Shown here: piece after piece, positions 50,626-61,821 of the stretch
Layout of the letters: each line of letters begins with the position of its first letter
How positions within the stretch are numbered: position 1 is the first letter of the stretch
Translations under genes and position numbers: made by a program
Notes under the pieces: model-generated
What the model was told of the DNA's origin: nothing
The model's input: only the letters and a program-made list of their open reading frames with translations
Databases searched by the model: none
Assembly: GCA_001516055.1 (NCBI GenBank)
Contig: LOEZ01000058.1
Coordinates: 62,001 to 126,000 of the forward strand
Source: Gracilibacter sp. BRH_c7a
Lineage (GTDB): Bacteria > Bacillota > Desulfitobacteriia > Desulfitobacteriales > Syntrophobotulaceae
DNA length: 64,000 bases
Direction: 5' to 3'

Positions 50626-51204
50626 TTATTTTGAACTCATAATCAGAGAGAAAGCTTCTGCTCTCGTAGCTGAACTGGTTTGAAAAATTCCCCGAACAGC
50701 TGAAGTTACCGTTTTGGAGCCCGGTTTCTTTATCCCTCTGATAGTCATACACATATGCTCAGCTTCAATCACAACCAGCACGCCCCTGGCCTCCAGAATC
50801 TGCTGCACTGTATCTGCAATTTGCCCTGTCAGGCGTTCCTGGAGTTGAGGTCTTTTGGCAAATGCTTCAGCTACTCTTGCCAGTTTTGATAAACCGGTCA
50901 CCTTTTCATGACGGGGAATATAAGCTATATGGGCCTGCCCCACAAACGGAAGCAGATGGTGTTCGCACATAGAATAAATCGGGATATCTTTCACAATTAT
51001 CATTTCTTCATGGTTCTCAGAAAACTGAACCGTAAGATGCCGACTTGGGTCTTCATGGAGACCTACAAAAGCTTCTTGATAAAATCTGGCGACTCTTCTT
51101 GGTGTATCCTTTAAGCCTTCCCTGTCGGGATTCTCCCCCACTGCTTCCAGAATATCCCTTACGGCACTTTCTATCTTGCCTAAATTAATACTGCTTGTCA
51201 ACAT
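50626..51204 (-). CDS. folE: GTP cyclohydrolase I
   Basis: 192 residues. Converts GTP to 7,8-dihydroneopterin triphosphate, the first step of folate and of H4MPT pterin synthesis in bacteria. Zinc and catalytic motifs are CEHHLLPF (Cys-x2-His) and HMCMTIRG (second Cys); [20 protein letters not shown] is the conserved active-site helix. The ATG at 51204 has GAGGT upstream. It lies 30 nt behind pabAB on the same strand, so the two form a pterin/pABA operon next to H4MPT-type genes. Confidence 0.96.
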
Positions 51205-51240
51205 AATCACCTCAAAATTCCTTCTCCTGATTTAAACGGT

Positions 51241-53313
51241 TTATTTAGCTGATGTTTTAACAGACTTTGGTTGGATACTTAAATCAACTCCTAAGACTTC
51301 CAATAACTTACCTGCTTTGTGAATGGTTTCAGCATACTCATCTTCAGGGACGGAATCAGCTACAATCCCTCCCCCAGCGTGAACATGAGCGACGCCGTCT
51401 TTGAGAAGAATGGTTCTGATCACTATATTCAAATCCCAGGCACCGTCAAAGCCGATATAACCAATACTCCCGGTGTATATCCCCCGCTTATAGGGTTCTA
51501 ACTCATCAATTATTTCCATAGCTCTTATCTTGGGAGCACCAGTGATTGAACCACCCGGAAAGATCGCCTTGAGAATTCGACTTGGTTTTAGACCTGCTTT
51601 CATCCTCCCAACTATGGTGGCGACAAGGTGCCAAACAGCAGGATATTTTTCCAGGATAATCAGTTCTTTGGTTTTTACTGATCCATAAGTGCAAATCCTC
51701 CCCAGGTCATTGCGCTCCAGATCCACGATCATAGTCAGTTCCGCTTTATCTTTTTCACTATTCAGAAGTTCAGAGGCCAGTTTTTCATCCTCGGCTTGGG
51801 TCTTACCCCTTGGCCGCGTCCCCTTAATCGGTCTGGTTTCTATGTATCCCTGGGGCGATATCCGGATAAACCGTTCCGGCGAGGTTGAGAGGATCTGATA
51901 TTCAGAATAAGGCAAAAAAGCAGAAAACGGCGCAGAGTTTTCCTGGCGCAATCTGTAATAAAGCTCCCAGGGATCTCCCAAGTAGGGTAAACTGAAGGCT
52001 TGACTGAGGTTAGCCTGATATATATCTCCGTCGTATATATAATTTATTACTCGCTCGAGATCCTTCAGATACTGTTGTTTGGGTACGCTTTTACCAACCA
52101 GTTCAAAAGAAATCCTGTCTGGATCGTGCTCGTCTAGAAGAGGATTCTTATCGCTCCAGCATGCCTCCAAATAATCACGAATAATCTCTTCAAGGTTATC
52201 CAATCTCACCCTGGCAAGTCCTGAATCACATTCCCCGCCCTCTTTCATTCCGCAGGCAGTAAGATAGTATTGTTTAGTTTCATGCTCATAAACCAAAATT
52301 CCGTCATACCAGGCTAAGGTCCACAGGGGTATCCCCAACTCCTCTTTTGATGTTTGAGGCAGATCTTCTATTTCATTTTTCAAATCATAGCTGAAGAACC
52401 CAACCGCCCCTCCGGAGAAAGGAAACGGAGTCGATAAGGGTACCTGGTACTGAGAAAGAAAATCATCCAATATCGAGAGAGCATTTTGATCGTCTGAATA
52501 CTCAATTTGAGTATTGTCGTCACCACCTTTGTCTATTTTCATATACCCTTGATAGGCACTAACCATGAGGAACGGAAAAGCTCCTAGATAAGAATGCTGT
52601 CCCAACTCAACATACTGATTACCACTATCAAGGAAAAACGGTTTATTTGCCTTTCGAAAAGCCTGCACCAGATGATGGGGTGGTAACGAGATAGCAAGTG
52701 GTCGAACTTGCCATACACTTGATCTATTTTGTTTTTCCTTCCAACTGCGAGCAGATTTCACAGCATTTTCCAATAGTTTTAAGCCGCTTTCTGTCAGGAT
52801 GGCCTCAGGATGAAACTGCACTCCCTCTAACGGAAGAGTGGTATGACGTATCCCCATAATTTCTCCGTCGGCGGTCTGGGCGGTAACCGCCAGTTCTGAC
52901 GGAAGACTGGCTCTTTCTAACGCTAATGAATGATAACGTGTAACCTTTAACGGGTTGGCTAAATCCTGAAAAACCCCCTCTCCATCATGAGTGATTAATG
53001 AAAGTTTCCCGTGGACAGGGGTTTTGGCACGGATAACATTTGCCCCAAAAACCTGGCCAACAGCCTGATGCCCCAGACAGATTCCAAGAATCGGCACCTT
53101 TCCTTTGAAATAATCAATAACTTCTAAAGAAAAAGCCGCTTCATTTGGTGAACATGGACCCGGAGAAATCACAATCAGATCAGGGCCTAAGGCACTTATA
53201 TCAGAAATAGTTCCTTCACCTGGACGAAAGACTGTAACTTCTTCCCCCAGTTCTCCAAAATATTGATAAAGATTATATGTGAATGAATCAAAGTTATCGA
53301 GCATGAAAATCAT
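51241..53313 (-). CDS. Fused aminodeoxychorismate synthase (PabA-PabB)
   Basis: 690 residues. N-terminal glutamine amidotransferase (1-195) with DNFDSFTYNLYQYFG, GICLGHQ nucleophile and HPEAI; C-terminal chorismate-using component I with PIKGTRPRGK (catalytic Lys), DLERNDLGRI and FPGGSITGAPKIRAME. It makes 4-amino-4-deoxychorismate, precursor of p-aminobenzoate. pABA is needed both for folate and as the acceptor used by beta-RFAP synthase encoded nearby. The ATG with AGGTGAAC is preferred over an upstream GTG. No separate PabC lyase is in the window. Confidence 0.95.
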   Translation of the reverse strand: MIFMLDNFDSFTYNLYQYFGELGEEVTVFRPGEGTISDISALGPDLIVISPGPCSPNEAAFSLEVIDYFKGKVPILGICLGHQAVGQVFGANVIRAKTPVHGKLSLITHDGEGVFQDLANPLKVTRYHSLALERASLPSELAVTAQTADGEIMGIRHTTLPLEGVQFHPEAILTESGLKLLENAVKSARSWKEKQNRSSVWQVRPLAISLPPHHLVQAFRKANKPFFLDSGNQYVELGQHSYLGAFPFLMVSAYQGYMKIDKGGDDNTQIEYSDDQNALSILDDFLSQYQVPLSTPFPFSGGAVGFFSYDLKNEIEDLPQTSKEELGIPLWTLAWYDGILVYEHETKQYYLTACGMKEGGECDSGLARVRLDNLEEIIRDYLEACWSDKNPLLDEHDPDRISFELVGKSVPKQQYLKDLERVINYIYDGDIYQANLSQAFSLPYLGDPWELYYRLRQENSAPFSAFLPYSEYQILSTSPERFIRISPQGYIETRPIKGTRPRGKTQAEDEKLASELLNSEKDKAELTMIVDLERNDLGRICTYGSVKTKELIILEKYPAVWHLVATIVGRMKAGLKPSRILKAIFPGGSITGAPKIRAMEIIDELEPYKRGIYTGSIGYIGFDGAWDLNIVIRTILLKDGVAHVHAGGGIVADSVPEDEYAETIHKAGKLLEVLGVDLSIQPKSVKTSAK

Positions 53314-53545
53314 ATTGTTCACCTACATCCTTTTGATCTCATTTTTCCCCTCCATAATACTCCTTCCTCTAAAGGGGCGATATCCATCAAGGAAAAATAA
53401 ATCTTGGTATTCAAGGCCCCCTGAATCCCATTGTCATCCAGCCATTTTAAGTCCTGGAATCCTTTTAACCGAAGTCATATTATCCCACTAACTTGTACCA
53501 ATGTTTGTTATAATTAAAATAAAACTCCATGGGGGCAAAAAGTAG

Positions 53546-54199
53546 ATGAAAAGACCAATTATTGTTAAATTCGGCGGAAGCTTGCTTCAGCAGGATAACG
53601 GAGATATCCTCCGCTCCTTAGGTTCCATCCTGACTCAGGCAGCTTCTCCTTTACTGGTCATTCCGGGAGGAGGTCCTTTCGCTGACACAGTCCGTCACTA
53701 CGGCAAACAATTGGATCTTAGTGAAGAAACCTGTCATTTTATGGCCCTCACGGCTATGGATCAATATGCATTTCTGCTTAAAGAATTCATGCCGGGGAGT
53801 GAGATTATAGATCTGGGTAATCCATTCAATCCAGCAGATACACTTAATATCCCAACCACTTCTGCTAATGCAAAAATTCTATTATGTTCCAGGTTCCTCA
53901 GACAATTGCCATCCGATGATCTCCTCCGCTCCTGGGATGTTACCTCTGATTCTATTGCGGCTTATCTAACCCGGAAGATTAATGGTGCAATGCTTGTAAT
54001 CCTGAAAAGTAAAGATATCAATCCTAAACTCCAGGAACCCGATGTCGATCCATTTTTCTGTCGGTTACTCCCCCTGAGAATACCTGTATGGTTTCTAAAT
54101 GGCATGCATCCGCAAAGACTTGCCGAACTTTTACAAATCGGCAGTACTCAGGGAGTTTATCTAGCTCCTGGCCATACCAACGCTCAATTCTCTGTTTAG
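53546..54199 (+). CDS. Amino-acid-kinase-fold enzyme, MfnE-like
   Basis: 217 residues. IIVKFGGSLLQ and LVIPGGGPFADTVRHYGKQL are amino-acid-kinase nucleotide and substrate loops; the MALTAMDQYA helix and SWDVTSDSIAAYLTRKI match the MfnE-type kinases found in H4MPT/methanofuran gene clusters of methanogens and methylotrophs. In methanogens MfnE phosphorylates a furan alcohol precursor of methanofuran. Here the presence beside beta-RFAP synthase and DUF6513 suggests the same C1-cofactor pathway. It is divergent from pabAB and its 3' end overlaps the mtdB/citG-like relic. Confidence 0.82.
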   Translation: MKRPIIVKFGGSLLQQDNGDILRSLGSILTQAASPLLVIPGGGPFADTVRHYGKQLDLSEETCHFMALTAMDQYAFLLKEFMPGSEIIDLGNPFNPADTLNIPTTSANAKILLCSRFLRQLPSDDLLRSWDVTSDSIAAYLTRKINGAMLVILKSKDINPKLQEPDVDPFFCRLLPLRIPVWFLNGMHPQRLAELLQIGSTQGVYLAPGHTNAQFSV

Positions 54200-54434
54200 T
54201 TCCTCAGTATACTGCCTGGCAATTAAATCCCGGTCTGTTGCCTGTTTCATAGCCTCCAGGAGAGTGATGGGCGGGGCTTCTTCTTTATAGACATCATATT
54301 CTTTAACCTGTTACTTCATCCAAACGGACTCCCCCATAAGCCATTACCTGATCCACCCCGGCATCATAAGCGGTAATCTGATCAAAAACACTGGCTTGAG
54401 CATCCGCCTCCAAATGAACCAGAATCTTCTTCAT
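54161..54434 (-). pseudogene. Chimeric relic: MtdA/MtdB N-terminus joined to CitG-like fragment
   Basis: ATG at 54434 with GGAGGA 6 nt upstream begins 43 residues (KKILVHLEADAQASVFDQIT, then AYDAGVDQVMAYGG) that match the start of methylene-H4MPT/H4F dehydrogenase MtdA/MtdB, about 290 residues when complete. A TAA follows at 54303. Directly after, in another frame from 54304, comes KEYDVYKEEAPPITLLEAMK then QATDRDLIARQYTEEL, which matches the TLREAM..DRDLIARQY segment of the CitG-like (triphosphoribosyl-dephospho-CoA synthase-related) proteins of bacterial H4MPT clusters. A deletion of the intervening 1-2 kb is the simplest explanation. Confidence 0.8.
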
Positions 54435-54515
54435 AATGACTCCTCCCTATTCTTTGTTCATCCAGACAAAAGAGCTTGAACTCATATGGCTATATTTCAA
54501 ACATCAATCATAATC

Positions 54516-54568
54516 AGGGATTGAGATACCATGATCTCAAGAAAGAATGGTCTCGATAATCAATCCCT
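54516..54568 (-). terminator. Hairpin after the DUF6513 gene
   Basis: AGGGATTG (54516-54523) pairs with CAATCCCT (54561-54568), with an inner GATACCAT/ATGGTCTC stem, 14 bp past the stop of the DUF6513 gene. Confidence 0.65.
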
Positions 54569-54582
54569 AACCCTCTTTCCAG

Positions 54583-55962
54583 TTAAATCTCTTTGTTAAG
54601 ATAACCCCAACGCAAAGGAGCATCCTGAACGTATTTTTTTCCTAACTGAAGAGCCAGTTCCGCTTTTTCCAGTTCTCGGCCCAGGTAAAAGGCATGTCCG
54701 GTATCCTTAATATTCAATTTATTAAAAAGTTCCGGGGCGGAAGCGCCCTGCCAAAAGCTTTGGGCATTAAAGACATAGATCTGATCACTTACAAAAATAC
54801 GGTAATTCTTATCTCTAATCATCTGGTGCATTTCCCAAAGATCTGTTCTATGGTAAGGATTACCAGTCGGATCTTTAATGGTCAAGAGACTATCGTTCAA
54901 ATGCTTAGGTACTCTTTTTTCTGATATAGCTTGATGAATCAAACGGCGTGCCTGATTGATCTCGCGTACACCCCCCCGTGCTCTGTGGCTTACTTCAGTG
55001 GTGAGGATATAATTAATCTTAAGTTCACCAGCTATACCTATCATAAGGGCATTAATACCTGTGCTGTCAGCATCTGTCAGCTCGGTGACATTGCCTAGCC
55101 CCATCAGTAATTCACAATTAGGGAATTTTTTGTGTACATGAAGATAGCGACAGATTCCTTCCGCCATCCCCATAGTCAAAGGAGGCAGAATGGGATCGAC
55201 TAGATAAGGAATGTTCCATTTGTCCAATTGTTCCATGTTGCGGTATAAAGATTCTAAATCCTCACCGTCGTCGGGAATCACTACCACCTTGCAGGCGAGT
55301 TCTCTGGCAAGCTCCAGGTTTTTGGAAGTGAAGCTCAGGATTAAATCTACTCCGGCTTGGTTGGCATTTAAGATATCATCTTGTTGATGGCTGTCTACAC
55401 TCACTGTGAAGCCTTCGGCTTTAAGCATCTTTATTACTGTCTGTAAACGGGGAAAGGGCTTATCCACATCCCCTCCCAGGTCAATGATATCGGCACCGCT
55501 TTCCCGGTAATAGAAGGCTTTTTGCATAATCTCTTTATCTGACATCCGGGCGGCGTTGACAATCTCGGCTAGGATCTGTATTGGTGACACTTCCATGGTC
55601 AAGCTGTTATGAGTATGATTGGTTTCCTGAGGCCCCTCTTTCTCATCCTGTAAAAAAGCAGGAAGGTCAATTAAATCTTTGGGACCCCTTAACACTTTAC
55701 AACCTGTGGTTTCCTCAATAGGTTGGAGTGCTCCTTCGCATAATCCTGGGATTATGATGGTGTCATCTTTACACAATTCATGTTCATGGGTAAGTTCACG
55801 CTTAAGTTCCCTGGCGATGAATTCTGTTGTCATCAGTGCTGCCACCGTACAATTCAGGGGTTTTATTTCCAGTTCGATGTCATTTATTTTTTGACTTACT
55901 TTGCCTAACGCAGGCCGGGCGATTTGCCCAGTAACAAGGAGATATTTTGTCAGTTTAATCAA
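54583..55962 (-). CDS. Dihydropteroate-synthase-related protein (DUF6513, H4MPT type)
   Basis: 459 residues. N-terminal domain with LLVTGQIARPALGKV, AALMTTEFIARELKREL, IIIPGLCEGAL and GPKDLIDLPAFL, then a dihydropteroate-synthase-like TIM barrel (SGADIIDLGGDVDKPFPRL, TVSVDSHQQDDI, MGLGNVTELTDADSTGINAL). This combination is the methanogen and methylotroph H4MPT-cluster family thought to couple the pterin to beta-RFA-P, not the folate FolP. TTG start. It is 3 nt from a 37-aa gene and belongs to the beta-RFAP synthase operon. Confidence 0.92.
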   Translation of the reverse strand: MIKLTKYLLVTGQIARPALGKVSQKINDIELEIKPLNCTVAALMTTEFIARELKRELTHEHELCKDDTIIIPGLCEGALQPIEETTGCKVLRGPKDLIDLPAFLQDEKEGPQETNHTHNSLTMEVSPIQILAEIVNAARMSDKEIMQKAFYYRESGADIIDLGGDVDKPFPRLQTVIKMLKAEGFTVSVDSHQQDDILNANQAGVDLILSFTSKNLELARELACKVVVIPDDGEDLESLYRNMEQLDKWNIPYLVDPILPPLTMGMAEGICRYLHVHKKFPNCELLMGLGNVTELTDADSTGINALMIGIAGELKINYILTTEVSHRARGGVREINQARRLIHQAISEKRVPKHLNDSLLTIKDPTGNPYHRTDLWEMHQMIRDKNYRIFVSDQIYVFNAQSFWQGASAPELFNKLNIKDTGHAFYLGRELEKAELALQLGKKYVQDAPLRWGYLNKEI

Positions 55963-55965
55963 CCC

Positions 55966-56079
55966 CTAACTTCTGAGATAAACATGATGCAGAAAACCTT
56001 CCAACTCTTTGGGATTATCAATCCCCCAGGCAATTCTCGGCTTATTTTTTTCCATATGGTTTTTATCTCTATCTAACAT
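55966..56079 (-). CDS. 37-aa small protein inside the H4MPT operon
   Basis: A 37-residue ORF with AGGGG at 7-nt spacing, sitting exactly between the beta-RFAP synthase stop (10 nt upstream) and the DUF6513 start (3 nt downstream). It is Lys-rich at the start, then KPRIAWGIDNPKELEGF. The tight packing argues it is translated. No family recognised; the Trp-Gly and Asn-Pro motifs may mark a small binding protein. Confidence 0.55.
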   Translation of the reverse strand: MLDRDKNHMEKNKPRIAWGIDNPKELEGFLHHVYLRS

Positions 56080-56089
56080 GTTTTTACCC

Positions 56090-57058
56090 CTATATCCACC
56101 CAAAACTGGCCCCTTTATTTCTGCCTGAAGCCAACCAAACATAACCTTCGTCTCCGACAAAACCCCTGGTTCTTACCAATAACTCAGCTTTCTTTTCCTC
56201 ATTGGTAAATCCAAAGATAGTTGGTCCCCATGAACTCTGACCTATCCCCACAGCTCCTTGTGACATTAAGAATTCCGCAACCCTTGAGCCTTGGGCTGAT
56301 GCATACTGCCCACCCTGTACAGGTGCAAAATAATCACCTAAATAATTTTGAATATCTGTCACTGCTTCTCCGAAGACTTCCAGGTCTCTCTCTACTAAGC
56401 CGGGAAGTAATTTCATGAGTAGGAGTCTGCAAATTTTGCCGGATATATCTTCCTTCATCGGTAATAGTGAGTTGAAAGCATTCTCTTCTTTGCAGCCGAA
56501 CATTTTTTCTTGCTGATAAGGTAAGACGAGGATAATAGCCCAGTCTTCAGGAAAAGGTATTCTGGCCAGTACAGGTGGTACATCAAATCTATCTTGTGAC
56601 TGAAGCTCACTTTCCTTCTTGCCGCCGTCAATAAGAAATCCACCCCTCTCAAAAGCAGCCACTCCAATTCCGGAACGACTGCTCTCTCTATCTGTAATTG
56701 CAGCAAGTTCCGTTAAAGATGAATGCAGCTCATAGATCTGGGCAATAGCGAAACCCAGTGCTAAAGAAAGCTGTGTCCCTGACCCTAACCCACTATGACT
56801 GGGTAAGGACTGAACCAACTCAATCTTCACACCGGGAAGACTATAATACTCCAGATATTTTTTTACTATTCTTTCCAATCTCTTCTTTTCCCCACATAAA
56901 CTTTGGAGGGAAAGAGAACCTGCTTTTTCTGCTCTGATTTCCAACTGAGGCTGATCTATAGCTAACCCCAGTCCGCCATACAGACGACCTAAAGATCCGT
57001 TTAAATCCAGTTGGCCCAAGTGTAGACGTGCTCCGGTTTTCACCCAAAACTTTTCCAT
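56090..57058 (-). CDS. Beta-ribofuranosylaminobenzene 5'-phosphate synthase-like
   Basis: 322 residues, GHMP-kinase fold. RLHLGQLDLNGSLGRLYGGL, the glycine loop LPSHSGLGSGTQLSLALG, and VAAFERGGFLIDGGKKE with GIGQSSWGPTIFGF are the beta-RFAP synthase pattern. The enzyme condenses PRPP with p-aminobenzoate, releasing CO2, and commits to H4MPT synthesis. pABA is supplied by pabAB 3 kb away. ATG at 57058 (GAGG, 7-nt spacing); an upstream ATG lacks a site. Confidence 0.92.
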   Translation of the reverse strand: MEKFWVKTGARLHLGQLDLNGSLGRLYGGLGLAIDQPQLEIRAEKAGSLSLQSLCGEKKRLERIVKKYLEYYSLPGVKIELVQSLPSHSGLGSGTQLSLALGFAIAQIYELHSSLTELAAITDRESSRSGIGVAAFERGGFLIDGGKKESELQSQDRFDVPPVLARIPFPEDWAIILVLPYQQEKMFGCKEENAFNSLLPMKEDISGKICRLLLMKLLPGLVERDLEVFGEAVTDIQNYLGDYFAPVQGGQYASAQGSRVAEFLMSQGAVGIGQSSWGPTIFGFTNEEKKAELLVRTRGFVGDEGYVWLASGRNKGASFGWI

Positions 57059-57226
57059 TTTCTCACCTCTCCAGTGCACTCAGACTAAGGGTTATTGCGT
57101 AAATAGATAGAATATCGGCGAAAGAATTTTATGGCGGGACAGACTACGCTGGGCAGCCTGCCCCTATATAAAATGCATGGTGCTAACAATAGCTATAGGG
57201 AGAAGGTTTTGTGGGCGAGTATGGGA

Positions 57227-57979
57227 CTACTCCTCTATTTCTTCTTTTACAAAAGCATCATAAACAAATACTGCCAGGATAGCTCCAATTATCGGTGCTA
57301 CAAGGTAAATCCAGTAAATTGACAACCCGTTTGGACCACCTGCAAAAGCATTAACCAACATTGGTCCAAAAGAACGGGCAGGATTGATGCCTTGACCTGA
57401 AATATTACCCATAGTGGTAATCACTCCGGCAACAATCAGACCAATAATCAAACCCGCCCAACCTTGTGGGGCTCTTTTATCGACAGCTATACCCATGATA
57501 GTAAGCATCAGAATGAAAGTCCCAACTACTTCAGCGATAAATACTCCGGACATGGTTATCCCCGGGAAAGCACCGGGAGCACCCAGCCCTCCTACAGTGG
57601 TCCCTTTGGTACCAAGCATGGCCAGCAAAGTAGCCGCACCCAAGATGGCACCGGTAAATTGCGCCACCAGATAAGGGATTAAATCCTTGGTAGGAAAACG
57701 CTTAGTTACCCAAAGGGCAATCGTTACAGCCGGATTGATATGACATCCGGAAACAGGTCCAAATATATATATTGCAGCAGCTATGACAATTCCAAAGGCT
57801 AAACCGATGGCCAACCAGTCTCCCAGACCTCCTAAAGCACCTATACCGATATTGAAAGCGGAAGCTTTATCCGCTCCTTCAGCAATCATTAAAGTTACTG
57901 CAGCAGCACCGGCTCCAACCAACACAAGCATCCAGGTACCAATCAGTTCAGCAACAAATTTCTTGACGATCGAAGGCAT
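57227..57979 (-). CDS. Aquaporin/MIP channel
   Basis: 250 residues, six helices and two half-helices with NPA boxes INPAVTIAL and INPARSFGP. The second box followed by Ser, not Asp, favours the water/small-neutral-solute (AqpM/AqpZ) side over glycerol facilitators. It could pass small polar C1 compounds such as methanol or formaldehyde, but this is an inference. It follows the DUF2193 gene on the same strand after 109 nt, with a hairpin between them, so it may share the sigma-54 transcript. Confidence 0.93.
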   Translation of the reverse strand: MPSIVKKFVAELIGTWMLVLVGAGAAAVTLMIAEGADKASAFNIGIGALGGLGDWLAIGLAFGIVIAAAIYIFGPVSGCHINPAVTIALWVTKRFPTKDLIPYLVAQFTGAILGAATLLAMLGTKGTTVGGLGAPGAFPGITMSGVFIAEVVGTFILMLTIMGIAVDKRAPQGWAGLIIGLIVAGVITTMGNISGQGINPARSFGPMLVNAFAGGPNGLSIYWIYLVAPIIGAILAVFVYDAFVKEEIEE

Positions 57980-58088: not shown

Positions 58089-59570
58089 CTATACTGCCGA
58101 GTTCCAGTTGCAATAGTCACAACGCTTGATCAGTCCTGTAACAGCACAATTCTTACATACTCTGGCAGGTGATCCTGGTGATTTGGGATCCAAAGCAATG
58201 ATATTGGTCATGAGGGTTGCTGTAACGGGCTCACTGGTCAGTAAGCATGGGAAGTCAGCCAGTCTCATTAGGGATGAGAACCTTACAGTAATAGCACATG
58301 CTGGATAGGTATAACGCTGTGGATTGGAAATGACCTCATTGGCATCTACTGCACCTAGCTGAACTTTAACTCCTTTAATCTTACCGCCTGCACCCTTCGG
58401 GGCATTATCGATGATCTGGGCACCACGCCAAATCATATCCATGAAATCAACATTGTGTAATTCTGCAGCAGGACCACGGTTGGGGTACTTGCAAACATAG
58501 TTGGTATAGCGCTTACTCAAAAGATCAACTACCATAGGCACGGTAAATCCGTCTTTTTCCAAAATGTAAGCAACAGCTGCAGCGGTGGATCCGGTAGCAA
58601 CACTCAAGACATCATAGACGCTCTTATATCCCTGATCCAAACCGGCCTTTAATGTTTGCTCCATTACATCGGTAGTAGCTTCCATAATCGCCATGGTGAC
58701 ATCATCTTTAGCCATGTTAAACATGGACTGAGCAATATGGTGGGCTACATCTCCTACGCAATAGGCAGGAACTGTCACTATATTTCCGTAATGGACCCCT
58801 GCATCGACGGCAGCCTTGACAGCGGAGCGCATTCTTTCCTTATACATATCCATGTATTTCTTAACATCGAAGGATGTATGTCCATGATCAGTCATCAATT
58901 TGGTCTGAGCTTCGATTGGCTTATCATAAACCAATTGCAGCATCTTGATTTCTTCCTTAACAGCTTGATCTGCTGTCTTGCCTTCTTCAATAGCTCCTGC
59001 AAAAGCCGCACCAATACCATAAGAAGTATTCATGCCCCAGGACTTAGAAGACAGGATGGCCTGTTTATATTTTTTATCAATGGAGAGTCCCTGCAAGATA
59101 GTGTTAACTACGTTACTGGTTGATCCCGGAACAAAAGCAAAGTCAACAACTGCGGTCGGCCCATAAAAACCACCATAACGACGGATTGATTCCTTACCAA
59201 CTAATGACTCATTATCGGCAAGTGCCTTAATGAATTGATCCACTGCCCCCCGGAAAGCAGGATCTAATTCATAAAGTATTTCCATGATGGCAGGAGTCTG
59301 ATAGTGTTCAACAAAAGGATCGTCCTCAGGAGTTACAGTCTCTGTAAGCTTGTCAAAAATCTGGTAATGGGCATTAACAGAATCCACATGTAAGCGAATG
59401 ACTTCCGGGCTTTGTCCTTCCCCTGCAGTCATGCCGTTTACTGCATCCACATAGGGTTTGGCATCAGAGATTTTAAACTTTCCTCCTCTCTTGGCTTTAA
59501 TGACGTTGAGATCTGCTCTTTGGGCTGTGAGTGCTTCTGAGATCATCTTGGCATAGATGGCACTGGACAT
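58089..59570 (-). CDS. DUF2193 protein
   Basis: 493 residues. I recognise the family by AMRIC-like overall size and blocks such as LVGKESIRRYGGFYGPTAVV, FVPGSTSNVVNTILQG, MLQLVYDKPIEAQTKLMTDH and TGSTAAAVAYILEKDGF; DUF2193 is described mainly from methanogens and has no known activity. The C-terminus has a zinc-finger-like CKNC..CDYC pair. GGAGG at 7 nt fixes the ATG at 59570, not the longer frame. A sigma-54 promoter lies 45 bp upstream and an AcoR-type activator gene follows upstream. It is probably a C1 or carbonyl-compound enzyme induced by its substrate. Confidence 0.85.
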   Translation of the reverse strand: MSSAIYAKMISEALTAQRADLNVIKAKRGGKFKISDAKPYVDAVNGMTAGEGQSPEVIRLHVDSVNAHYQIFDKLTETVTPEDDPFVEHYQTPAIMEILYELDPAFRGAVDQFIKALADNESLVGKESIRRYGGFYGPTAVVDFAFVPGSTSNVVNTILQGLSIDKKYKQAILSSKSWGMNTSYGIGAAFAGAIEEGKTADQAVKEEIKMLQLVYDKPIEAQTKLMTDHGHTSFDVKKYMDMYKERMRSAVKAAVDAGVHYGNIVTVPAYCVGDVAHHIAQSMFNMAKDDVTMAIMEATTDVMEQTLKAGLDQGYKSVYDVLSVATGSTAAAVAYILEKDGFTVPMVVDLLSKRYTNYVCKYPNRGPAAELHNVDFMDMIWRGAQIIDNAPKGAGGKIKGVKVQLGAVDANEVISNPQRYTYPACAITVRFSSLMRLADFPCLLTSEPVTATLMTNIIALDPKSPGSPARVCKNCAVTGLIKRCDYCNWNSAV

Positions 59571-59614
59571 AAAAATACCTCCTCTAAAATAAAATAATCC
59601 TGCATCATAATTAC

Positions 59615-59859: not shown

Positions 59860-61821
59860 TTAAGAAAGATTTTGAAAATTCTTAGCGTTAATCCCGTATT
59901 TGTCTATTTTTCTATATAGAGTATTTCGTGCTATCCCTAAAATAACTGAGCCTTTGCTAATATTCCAGTTTACTGATTCTAGAGTATCGATAATTATTTC
60001 CCTTTCAACATTCTCTAAATCTCTGTCTTTATTTTTACCTTTGAATGTGCTCTCCGGTTGTTGCAGATGTACCGGTAAGTGTTCAATTTTAATGGCTTTC
60101 CCTTTAGCCAGATTTACTGCTCTTTCCATGGCATTAGCTAATTCGCGGACATTTCCTGGCCATTGATAGTTTTCCAGACAGTCAGCGGCTTGGGGATCTA
60201 ATTGACTTATCTTATATCCCAGCATGGCGGAAAACTTATTTATATAATAGTTAGCCAAAAGTAATACATCCCCTTCCCTTTTACAAAGAGAAGGTATGAT
60301 AATATTGATGACATTCAAACGATAAAAGAGATCCTCTCGAAAATTACCTTTACGGACTTCATCCTTCAAATCTTTATTGGTAGCAGCGATAACCCGCACA
60401 CTTATAGGTATGGGCTTATAACCACCGATTCTTACCACTTGTTTTTCCTGGAGAACCCGTAATAATGATACTTGGGTATCCAAAGGCATGTCCGCAATTT
60501 CATCCAGGAGAATGGTACCTTCATTAGCAAGTTCAAATTTTCCTGCTCTCCCGCCTCGTCTGGCTCCAGTAAAAGCTCCGTCTTCGTAACCAAAAAGTTC
60601 ACTTTCAATCAAATCCCTGGGTATCGCCCCACAGTTAATAGCGATAAAAGGCCCCTGAGAAAAACTGCTGGCGTTGTGAATGGCTTGGGCGAACATCTCC
60701 TTGCCTGTACCGCTTTCTCCCTGCAAGATCACGGAAGACAAGCTGTCAGCAATATCTTGGGCTATTTCTATACTGTTTTTGAGACACTCACTTTCTCCAA
60801 TTATGTCTTCAAAGGTAAACAAAGCCCTGGCCCCCACCATTTGGTTAATCAGCCTGTGAACATTTTTGATTTCCCTGACAATTGCCACTCCACCACAGAT
60901 TTCCTTAGTGTTGTCGATAATAGGCTGGGCAGAGAATAAAAAACGAACCTGTTTATGATTTCTCTCCAACAGAAATTCGTGATCGTAAATACTGCGGCCA
61001 CTTTTCAAAATGTCGTCAATTACTTCTTCATTCTTAAGAACACTCTTGAGAGATTTTCCCTGGAAAGTAGAGGCATTGATGTTTAGGATGCTTAGGGCAA
61101 CAGGATTCATATTGGTTATGCGGCCACTTTCATCAAAAGAGACAATACCTTCAGAAATAGTTTCTATAATGGCATTGACATTATTGTAGGATTTAACAAT
61201 CTCAGCATTAGCGGCCTTTAACCTTAATTCATTTTCAATAGCTTTTACAGCTGCAACAACCATTCCCAGGGTATGCATATGAACCTTATTGAAATCACCG
61301 GAAACATCCAGGATGCCTATCATCTCCCCATCTGGGGTATAGATTGGGGCTCCCGAACAGGTAATACAGTGATTTGCCAATACATAATGCTCTGTGGCGT
61401 ACACCTGTACCGGTATTTTTTCGATTTTTACTACACCCATAGCATTGGTGCCTTTAGTTTCTTCGTCCCAGATTTCTCCTACCCGAAAATGCCTGAATCT
61501 ATCCAGGATATCCTGGTCTCCCATCACTTCCACGATACAGGCATCTTTATCGAGAAGGACAACCACAAAACCCGAGCCTTTAACGAATCCATATAATTCT
61601 TCTAGAAAGGGTTTAGCTACTTTTATCAGACGGCGGTTAATTTCTTTTCTTCCTTGAACTTCTTCTTCAGGTAAACGAAAAGAGATAGCTTCATCAGAAT
61701 TCTGTTTGCGCTTCTTGCAGCGCTGCCAGGAGGCCATAATAATAGGATCTACTAAGGTTGTCGCTTCGCTTAAAGTTCCTTTTTTTACGAAATCTTCCCA
61801 GGCTTGATATTGAAATTCCAT
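59860..61821 (-). CDS. AcoR-type sigma-54 activator
   Basis: 653 residues. N-terminal GAF (about 60-200; GTNAMGVVKIEKIPVQVYA, GAPIYTPDGEMIGILDVSGD), PAS (about 215-320), AAA+ (about 340-570) with Walker A GESGTGKE, the sigma-54 contact loop GAFTGARRGGRAG and ILLDEIADMPLDTQVSLLR, then Fis-type HTH at the C-terminus (GSVILGIARNTLYRKIDKYG). Proteins of this type sense small carbonyl or alcohol compounds such as acetoin and open RpoN promoters. The adjacent RpoN promoter and paired repeats mark DUF2193 and perhaps the aquaporin as its targets. Confidence 0.94.
   Translation of the reverse strand: MEFQYQAWEDFVKKGTLSEATTLVDPIIMASWQRCKKRKQNSDEAISFRLPEEEVQGRKEINRRLIKVAKPFLEELYGFVKGSGFVVVLLDKDACIVEVMGDQDILDRFRHFRVGEIWDEETKGTNAMGVVKIEKIPVQVYATEHYVLANHCITCSGAPIYTPDGEMIGILDVSGDFNKVHMHTLGMVVAAVKAIENELRLKAANAEIVKSYNNVNAIIETISEGIVSFDESGRITNMNPVALSILNINASTFQGKSLKSVLKNEEVIDDILKSGRSIYDHEFLLERNHKQVRFLFSAQPIIDNTKEICGGVAIVREIKNVHRLINQMVGARALFTFEDIIGESECLKNSIEIAQDIADSLSSVILQGESGTGKEMFAQAIHNASSFSQGPFIAINCGAIPRDLIESELFGYEDGAFTGARRGGRAGKFELANEGTILLDEIADMPLDTQVSLLRVLQEKQVVRIGGYKPIPISVRVIAATNKDLKDEVRKGNFREDLFYRLNVINIIIPSLCKREGDVLLLANYYINKFSAMLGYKISQLDPQAADCLENYQWPGNVRELANAMERAVNLAKGKAIKIEHLPVHLQQPESTFKGKNKDRDLENVEREIIIDTLESVNWNISKGSVILGIARNTLYRKIDKYGINAKNFQNLS

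Follow-up and report, generated by a model that had tools for sequence, protein, structure and literature searches.

H4MPT genes were reported earlier in Firmicutes, among other phyla (PMC5020050), and the bacterial H4MPT/methanofuran C1-transfer clusters described there are among the closest counterparts of the present locus. The genes are the same, namely bRFAPS, a DHPS-like gene, afpA, mtdB, fwd, ftr, mch, and mfn, but the copy in the window (the whole stretch of 64,000 nucleotides analyzed, i.e., positions 62001-126000 of contig LOEZ01000058.1, here C58) consists only of the head of the cluster, genes of the pterin branch, and mfnE, with DUF2193 and an aquaporin at the head. No description of DUF2193 and an aquaporin at the head of H4MPT clusters was found in the literature searched.

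The source assembly, from an anaerobic bacterium, is a 4.1 Mb draft of 98 contigs (95.8% complete, stated contamination 3.09%), and it contains a second operon on contig C19. Operons for comparison were taken from a sister-genus Peptococcaceae MAG of the same family (G012; two copies), Candidatus Formimonas warabiya DCMF, Desulfosporosinus metallidurans, D. lacus (two copies), Moorella sulfitireducens, and another Desulfosporosinus MAG (short contig). Seven of these operons span mtdB to citG; the extra Desulfosporosinus contig stops before citG, yet mtdB is full-length there. G012 has two complete H4MPT operons (L032 + L071 and L052 + L072), D. lacus has two operons as well, and the two-operon state thus seems to recur in these bacteria.

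All seven spanning operons share one gene order: regulator, DUF2193, aquaporin, bRFAPS, afpA, DHPS-like, DUF447, mtdB, ATP-grasp, fwdD, fwdB, fwdA, ftr, fwdC, mch, rimK-like, citG, mfnB. The tail after mfnB, which is variable in the other relatives, reads mfnE (opposite strand), mfnD, hydantoinase-like, hisA-like, a small gene, pabAB, pabC, and folE in both G012 copies. What the window operon keeps of this is, in order, the regulator, DUF2193, aquaporin, bRFAPS, DHPS-like gene, mfnE (in opposite orientation), pabAB, and folE (Table 1). The explanation that we favor, with a probability of roughly 0.92, is that the genome holds two diverged H4MPT/methanofuran operons, that the window copy has been cut by several deletions, and that the interval 54161-54434 is a deletion junction.

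Table 1. Positions of genes and gene remnants in the window operon (window numbering) and on contig C19 (contig numbering).
Feature	Position	Strand	Remarks
folE (GTP cyclohydrolase I)	50626..51210	-	intact; 76% identical to C19 copy, 83-86% to sister operons
pabAB fusion	51241..53322	-	intact; syntenic, 71-73% identical to sister operons
hisA-like/small-gene junction	53334..53468	-	C-terminal hisA-like fragment fused in frame to C-terminal small-gene fragment
mfnE-like kinase	53546..54199	+	matches to AA_kinase and MfnE families; antisense, like the copies in most relatives
citG remnant	54194..54310	-	about 39 mid-gene codons of the CitG-like protein of H4MPT clusters; frame differs from that of the mtdB remnant
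mtdB/citG deletion junction	54305..54310	-	breakpoint within a few bases
mtdB remnant	54309..54434	-	first 42 codons, MtdA/MtdB-family methylene-H4MPT dehydrogenase, with own ribosome-binding site
Probable DUF447 remnant	54504..54563	-	LIIETILS, stop, DHGISIPDYD; resembles two ends of the gene; between DHPS-like gene and mtdB
DHPS-like gene (DUF6513/Pterin_bind, TIGR00284)	54583..55962	-	intact; family matches
afpA (archaeoflavoprotein/dihydromethanopterin reductase-like) remnant	55966..56055	-	29 codons, between bRFAPS and DHPS-like gene
Beta-RFAP synthase	56090..57079	-	intact; TIGR00144 213 bits, cut-off 113.5
Aquaporin-type channel	57227..57979	-	intact; 73-86% identical to relatives, same operon position; type read from sequence
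DUF2193 protein	58089..59576	-	intact; PF09959 819 bits; sole copy in genome; true start probably near 59570-59576 (alignment)
Sigma-54-dependent-type regulator	59860..61821	-	operon head; 61-83% identical at head of related operons; type read from sequence
mfnE fossil, C19	241594-241665		opposite strand, between mfnD and mfnB
citG, C19	242401-243300		intact
fwdB, C19	248575-249888	-	in-frame TGA
mtdB, C19	251497-252360		intact
616-residue protein, C19	255998-257848	-	at operon head, in the place of DUF2193

The mtdB and citG remnants and their junction

The mtdB remnant begins on the minus strand as GGGAGGAG-TCATT-ATG and opens a 43-codon frame (54434-54306) that ends in TAA at 54305-54303. 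That these 43 residues, behind a ribosome site, are an MtdA/MtdB N-terminus had been proposed from the letters of the sequence, and the proposal is borne out. They match Pfam Mpt_N (PF09176) with 30.2 bits (E 5e-7; profile positions 1-28 of 81), above the gathering cut-off of 27 bits; tblastn with the intact MtdB proteins of C19 and the two G012 operons gives E values of 7.7e-20 to 1.5e-18 with 81-86% identity over 42 residues; the solved MtdA structures 1LU9 and 6TGE are matched at E 1.3e-5 to 1.4e-5; and the score is reached by none of 300 dinucleotide shuffles. Chance similarity is ruled out by these four results. Compared with the MtdA/MtdB dehydrogenase (PF09176; 1LU9, 6TGE), the remnant corresponds to the first 42 residues and lacks most of the N-terminal domain and the entire cofactor-binding, i.e., NAD(P)-binding, domain, intact copies having about 287 residues. 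Judged by what is encoded, it cannot be an enzyme. Intact C19 MtdB matches the solved MtdA enzymes over about 284 residues, and the 42 residues of the remnant are too few to decide between MtdA and MtdB.

The second open frame lies at 54310-54161 on the minus strand. The original prediction had the sequence switching, after the stop, to a fragment matching the DRDLIARQY region of a CitG-like protein; tblastn upholds both the switch and its coordinates, with the qualification that CitG homology itself stops near 54194 and the strand from there on runs antisense to the last part of mfnE. With CitG of C19 and of the two G012 operons as queries, E values are 2.5e-11 to 1.8e-9 and identities 51-54%, from 54310 to 54176 or 54194, and none of 300 dinucleotide shuffles reaches the score. 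The match to Pfam CitG (PF01874) is weak, at 16.2 bits against a cut-off of 27, because the fragment is short (36 aligned residues). The window fragment shares about 39 residues, around DRDLIARQY, with the CitG-like protein of bacterial H4MPT clusters, but it is without a start and both of its ends are missing. The last codons of mfnE appear to overlie sequence that reads as citG on the opposite strand.

The two genes had further been taken for collapsed neighbors, and this part of the prediction is refuted. Eight complete genes lie between mtdB and citG in all seven spanning related operons and in C19, and the distance from the end of the mtdB remnant to the start of the citG remnant is 9484, 9532, and 9360 bases in three intact operons. 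The interval 54161-54434 is therefore a deletion junction from which about 9.4-9.5 kb has been removed: against the seven spanning operons, flanking gene order is kept and the intervening genes are absent at one point. Filler sequence was not seen at the breakpoint; with regard to short repeats or microhomology there, the intact reference copies have diverged too far for both parental ends to be rebuilt. It is near certain that the interval is a genuine fossil in which an mtdB fragment is joined to a citG fragment inside an H4MPT cluster, and loss of function in the remnants would make it a non-functional junction.

Other collapsed sites lie in the same operon, and bRFAPS to folE measures 6.45 kb in the window vs. 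22.1 and 23.2 kb in G012. In the afpA remnant, 12 N-terminal codons run on in frame into about 17 whose translation is like the C-terminal ends in relatives; the N-terminal part, PRIAWGI, has a score that 0/300 shuffles reach. The small gene in the hisA-like fusion is the one that stands before pabAB in related operons (tblastn E 1e-4 and 4.7e-9; 0/300 shuffles for each part). DUF447 is called from position and reading by eye, its similarity alone not being significant (78/300 shuffles), and no trace of mfnB was found beside the citG fragment (176/300 shuffles). Several separate deletions have thus affected one operon (53334-54563 and 55966-56055, minus strand), and no point lesion was noticed in the remaining genes or remnants.

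No other gene of these operons comes near DUF2193 in conservation: it is 93-95% identical to the sister genus, while its neighbors are at about 57-86%. Its C-terminus is cysteine-rich. To our knowledge, DUF2193 is known from methanogens and has no function assigned. A search for relatives in the PDB found none, and the structure prediction (mean pLDDT 38) was not used. It is a candidate enzyme for the supply of C1 units to this pathway or for metal handling within it, and the reduced cluster points to a DUF2193-headed form of H4MPT operons.

The second operon on contig C19 and the two mfnE loci

Whole-genome searches, which included the suggested search for a second mtdB, located both intact mtdB and intact citG on C19. 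The cluster there reads bRFAPS, AfpA, DHPS-like, DUF447, mtdB, ATP-grasp, fwdD, fwdB, fwdA, ftr, fwdC, mch, rimK-like, citG, mfnB, mfnD, hydantoinase-like, hisA-like, folE, and is without the DUF2193/aquaporin/regulator head. Family searches back the identities of mch, ftr, fwdA, fwdB, AfpA-like, Mpt_N, and CitG, the AfpA match being below its equivalog cut-off. The original prediction that an H4MPT-linked dehydrogenase once stood at the window locus is thus right, and its corollary, that the lineage has lost or moved it, does not hold in view of the separate C19 operon. With mtdB and citG intact on C19, only one of the two operons has lost the dehydrogenase, and the organism retains it.

Between mfnD and mfnB, C19 carries an mfnE fossil, ERLILLLQTGLIEGVYLPPGNTMA, which corresponds to the MfnE C-terminus (24 residues, 54-58% identity; 58% to window MfnE) with a score reached by 0/300 shuffles. 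Four of the five operons checked have mfnE at exactly this place, namely both G012 copies, D. metallidurans, and one D. lacus copy. A search of the genome itself found intact mfnE in the window only, where the MfnE match of 79 bits is under the NCBIfam equivalog cut-off of 300. MfnE is the kinase of methanofuran synthesis; as it is intact only in the window, C19 probably draws on the window mfnE.

Each operon thus has something that the other lacks: the C1 core, including mtdB, is intact only in C19, and mfnE is intact only in C58 and a fossil in C19. Reciprocal loss of different parts between two redundant operons is likely, and mutual dependence of the two would follow. We lean, by a narrow balance, toward two once self-sufficient operons becoming interdependent, with the window copy recently pared down to a pterin-synthesis/DUF2193/mfnE module and C19 borrowing its mfnE. 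Loss of pabAB from C19 was considered as a further reciprocal loss and is not claimed, because one D. lacus operon is also without pabAB and a stand-alone pabAB-pabC stands on contig C32.

Two other features of C19 should be mentioned. In fwdB, the motif N-P-(S/A)-S-Y-U-HGPG contains an in-frame TGA, and a conserved GC-rich hairpin comes after it; the same arrangement occurs in loci L032, L033, L034, L036, L037, and L038, with the result that ORF finders split the gene in two; the G012 copy L052 has a 433-residue fwdB frame without the split. This gene probably encodes a selenocysteine formylmethanofuran dehydrogenase subunit B in these Firmicutes. The 616-residue protein at the operon head adjoins larB/larC-like genes (nickel-pincer cofactor synthesis, as read from the sequence); searches gave no Pfam, NCBIfam, or convincing PDB match for it, and no homologue in 80 relatives.

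Origin, age, and alternative explanations

In a concatenated tree, the C58 operon falls with the G012 copies, apart from C19 (UFBoot 95), and this grouping persists in a tree with more genes (SH-aLRT 96/UFBoot 92). The genome's two operons are therefore not recent duplicates. The placement of C19 is unstable between the two trees; its pairing with a D. lacus copy in the first (UFBoot 90) was lost with more genes and is not claimed. As for age, the 42 + 39 remnant codons show 28 nonsynonymous differences to the sister copy vs. about 31 between intact copies, and the 95% upper bound on a neutral excess is about 0.04 per site, with synonymous sites near saturation. As the remnants show no excess of amino-acid change, the mtdB-citG deletion is young relative to the age of the operon, and, the deletion being young, the intactness of the remaining window genes is no sign of selection keeping them. 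No intermediate was seen because the sole genus-mate genome compared (G001, 84% complete) holds no trace of either operon.

These results bear directly on other ways of reading the interval. Decay in place of mtdB and an adjacent citG, with the lineage losing or moving its H4MPT dehydrogenase, would account for both fragments being real, but it is the least probable reading of all: the eight genes that separate mtdB from citG in seven of seven spanning operons and in C19 speak against it, as do the intact mtdB and citG in the same genome and the absence of a sister relationship between the C58 and C19 copies. In particular, C19 as simply a moved copy of the window mtdB is rejected, the C19 operon having diverged separately while C58 groups with the sister genus. 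Alternatively, the short frames might be small genes with a function of their own, such as leader peptides or frames whose coupling sustains translation of the operon. This idea draws on the good ribosome site and open 43-codon frame, on the afpA remnant and the hisA-like/small-gene fusion remaining in frame, and on the lack of any excess of amino-acid change in the remnants. However, constraint equal to that of full genes is just as compatible with recent loss, the citG fragment lacks its own start and is read in a different frame, and the relatives, which had been named as the place to look for the same short frames, have none in any operon and a full-length mtdB in all. We regard this idea as very unlikely.

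An artefact of assembly or binning, either a misjoined junction or C19 and C58 coming from two organisms, is also unlikely. It could be argued from a draft in 98 contigs with 3% contamination and from several junctions in one region, all of them fresh. Against this, the collapsed sites lie at separate places, each in its correct syntenic position, C19 resembles the window in tetranucleotide make-up (r 0.95), and C19 is without exactly the mfnE that C58 has.

The preferred reading, two diverged operons of which the window copy was cut by deletions, suggests the following history, in an order of events that we infer. The genome would have carried two anciently diverged H4MPT/methanofuran operons. 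One deletion, from mtdB codon 42 to the middle of citG, would have removed the C1-transfer core from C58, taking with it the remainder of mtdB, the ATP-grasp gene, fwdDBA, ftr, fwdC, mch, the rimK-like gene, and the front half of citG. Through other deletions the operon would have lost pabC, the block from mfnD through the hydantoinase gene to hisA, what was left of citG together with mfnB, the greater part of both afpA and the small gene, and probably DUF447. The survivors in C58 would be the regulator, DUF2193, aquaporin, bRFAPS, DHPS-like gene, pabAB, folE, and the sole intact mfnE, while C19 would have kept the whole C1 core and lost mfnE. C1 flux would then pass through the MtdB of C19, and methanofuran synthesis would need the mfnE of the window.

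Comparison with known kinds of operon loss

Anaerobic Firmicutes can have their H4MPT clusters divided between two loci, and one reduced cluster in a draft genome is therefore not to be read as loss of the pathway. In the literature searched, no paper was found that joins mtdB, pseudogene, and methanopterin. The locus offers a fresh example of a large two-copy metabolic operon in the course of resolving, with whole blocks deleted, remnants that can still be recognized, and a corresponding fossil in the second copy. Finally, the deletion scar and the complementary loss are both known kinds of event, and the present instance is a clean one with its counterpart in the same genome. As in complementary (reciprocal) loss between redundant copies elsewhere, each operon has lost what the other keeps, and both losses have left fossils; the difference is that here the copies are anciently diverged operons in one bacterium, reduced by large deletions, with no recent duplication behind them.
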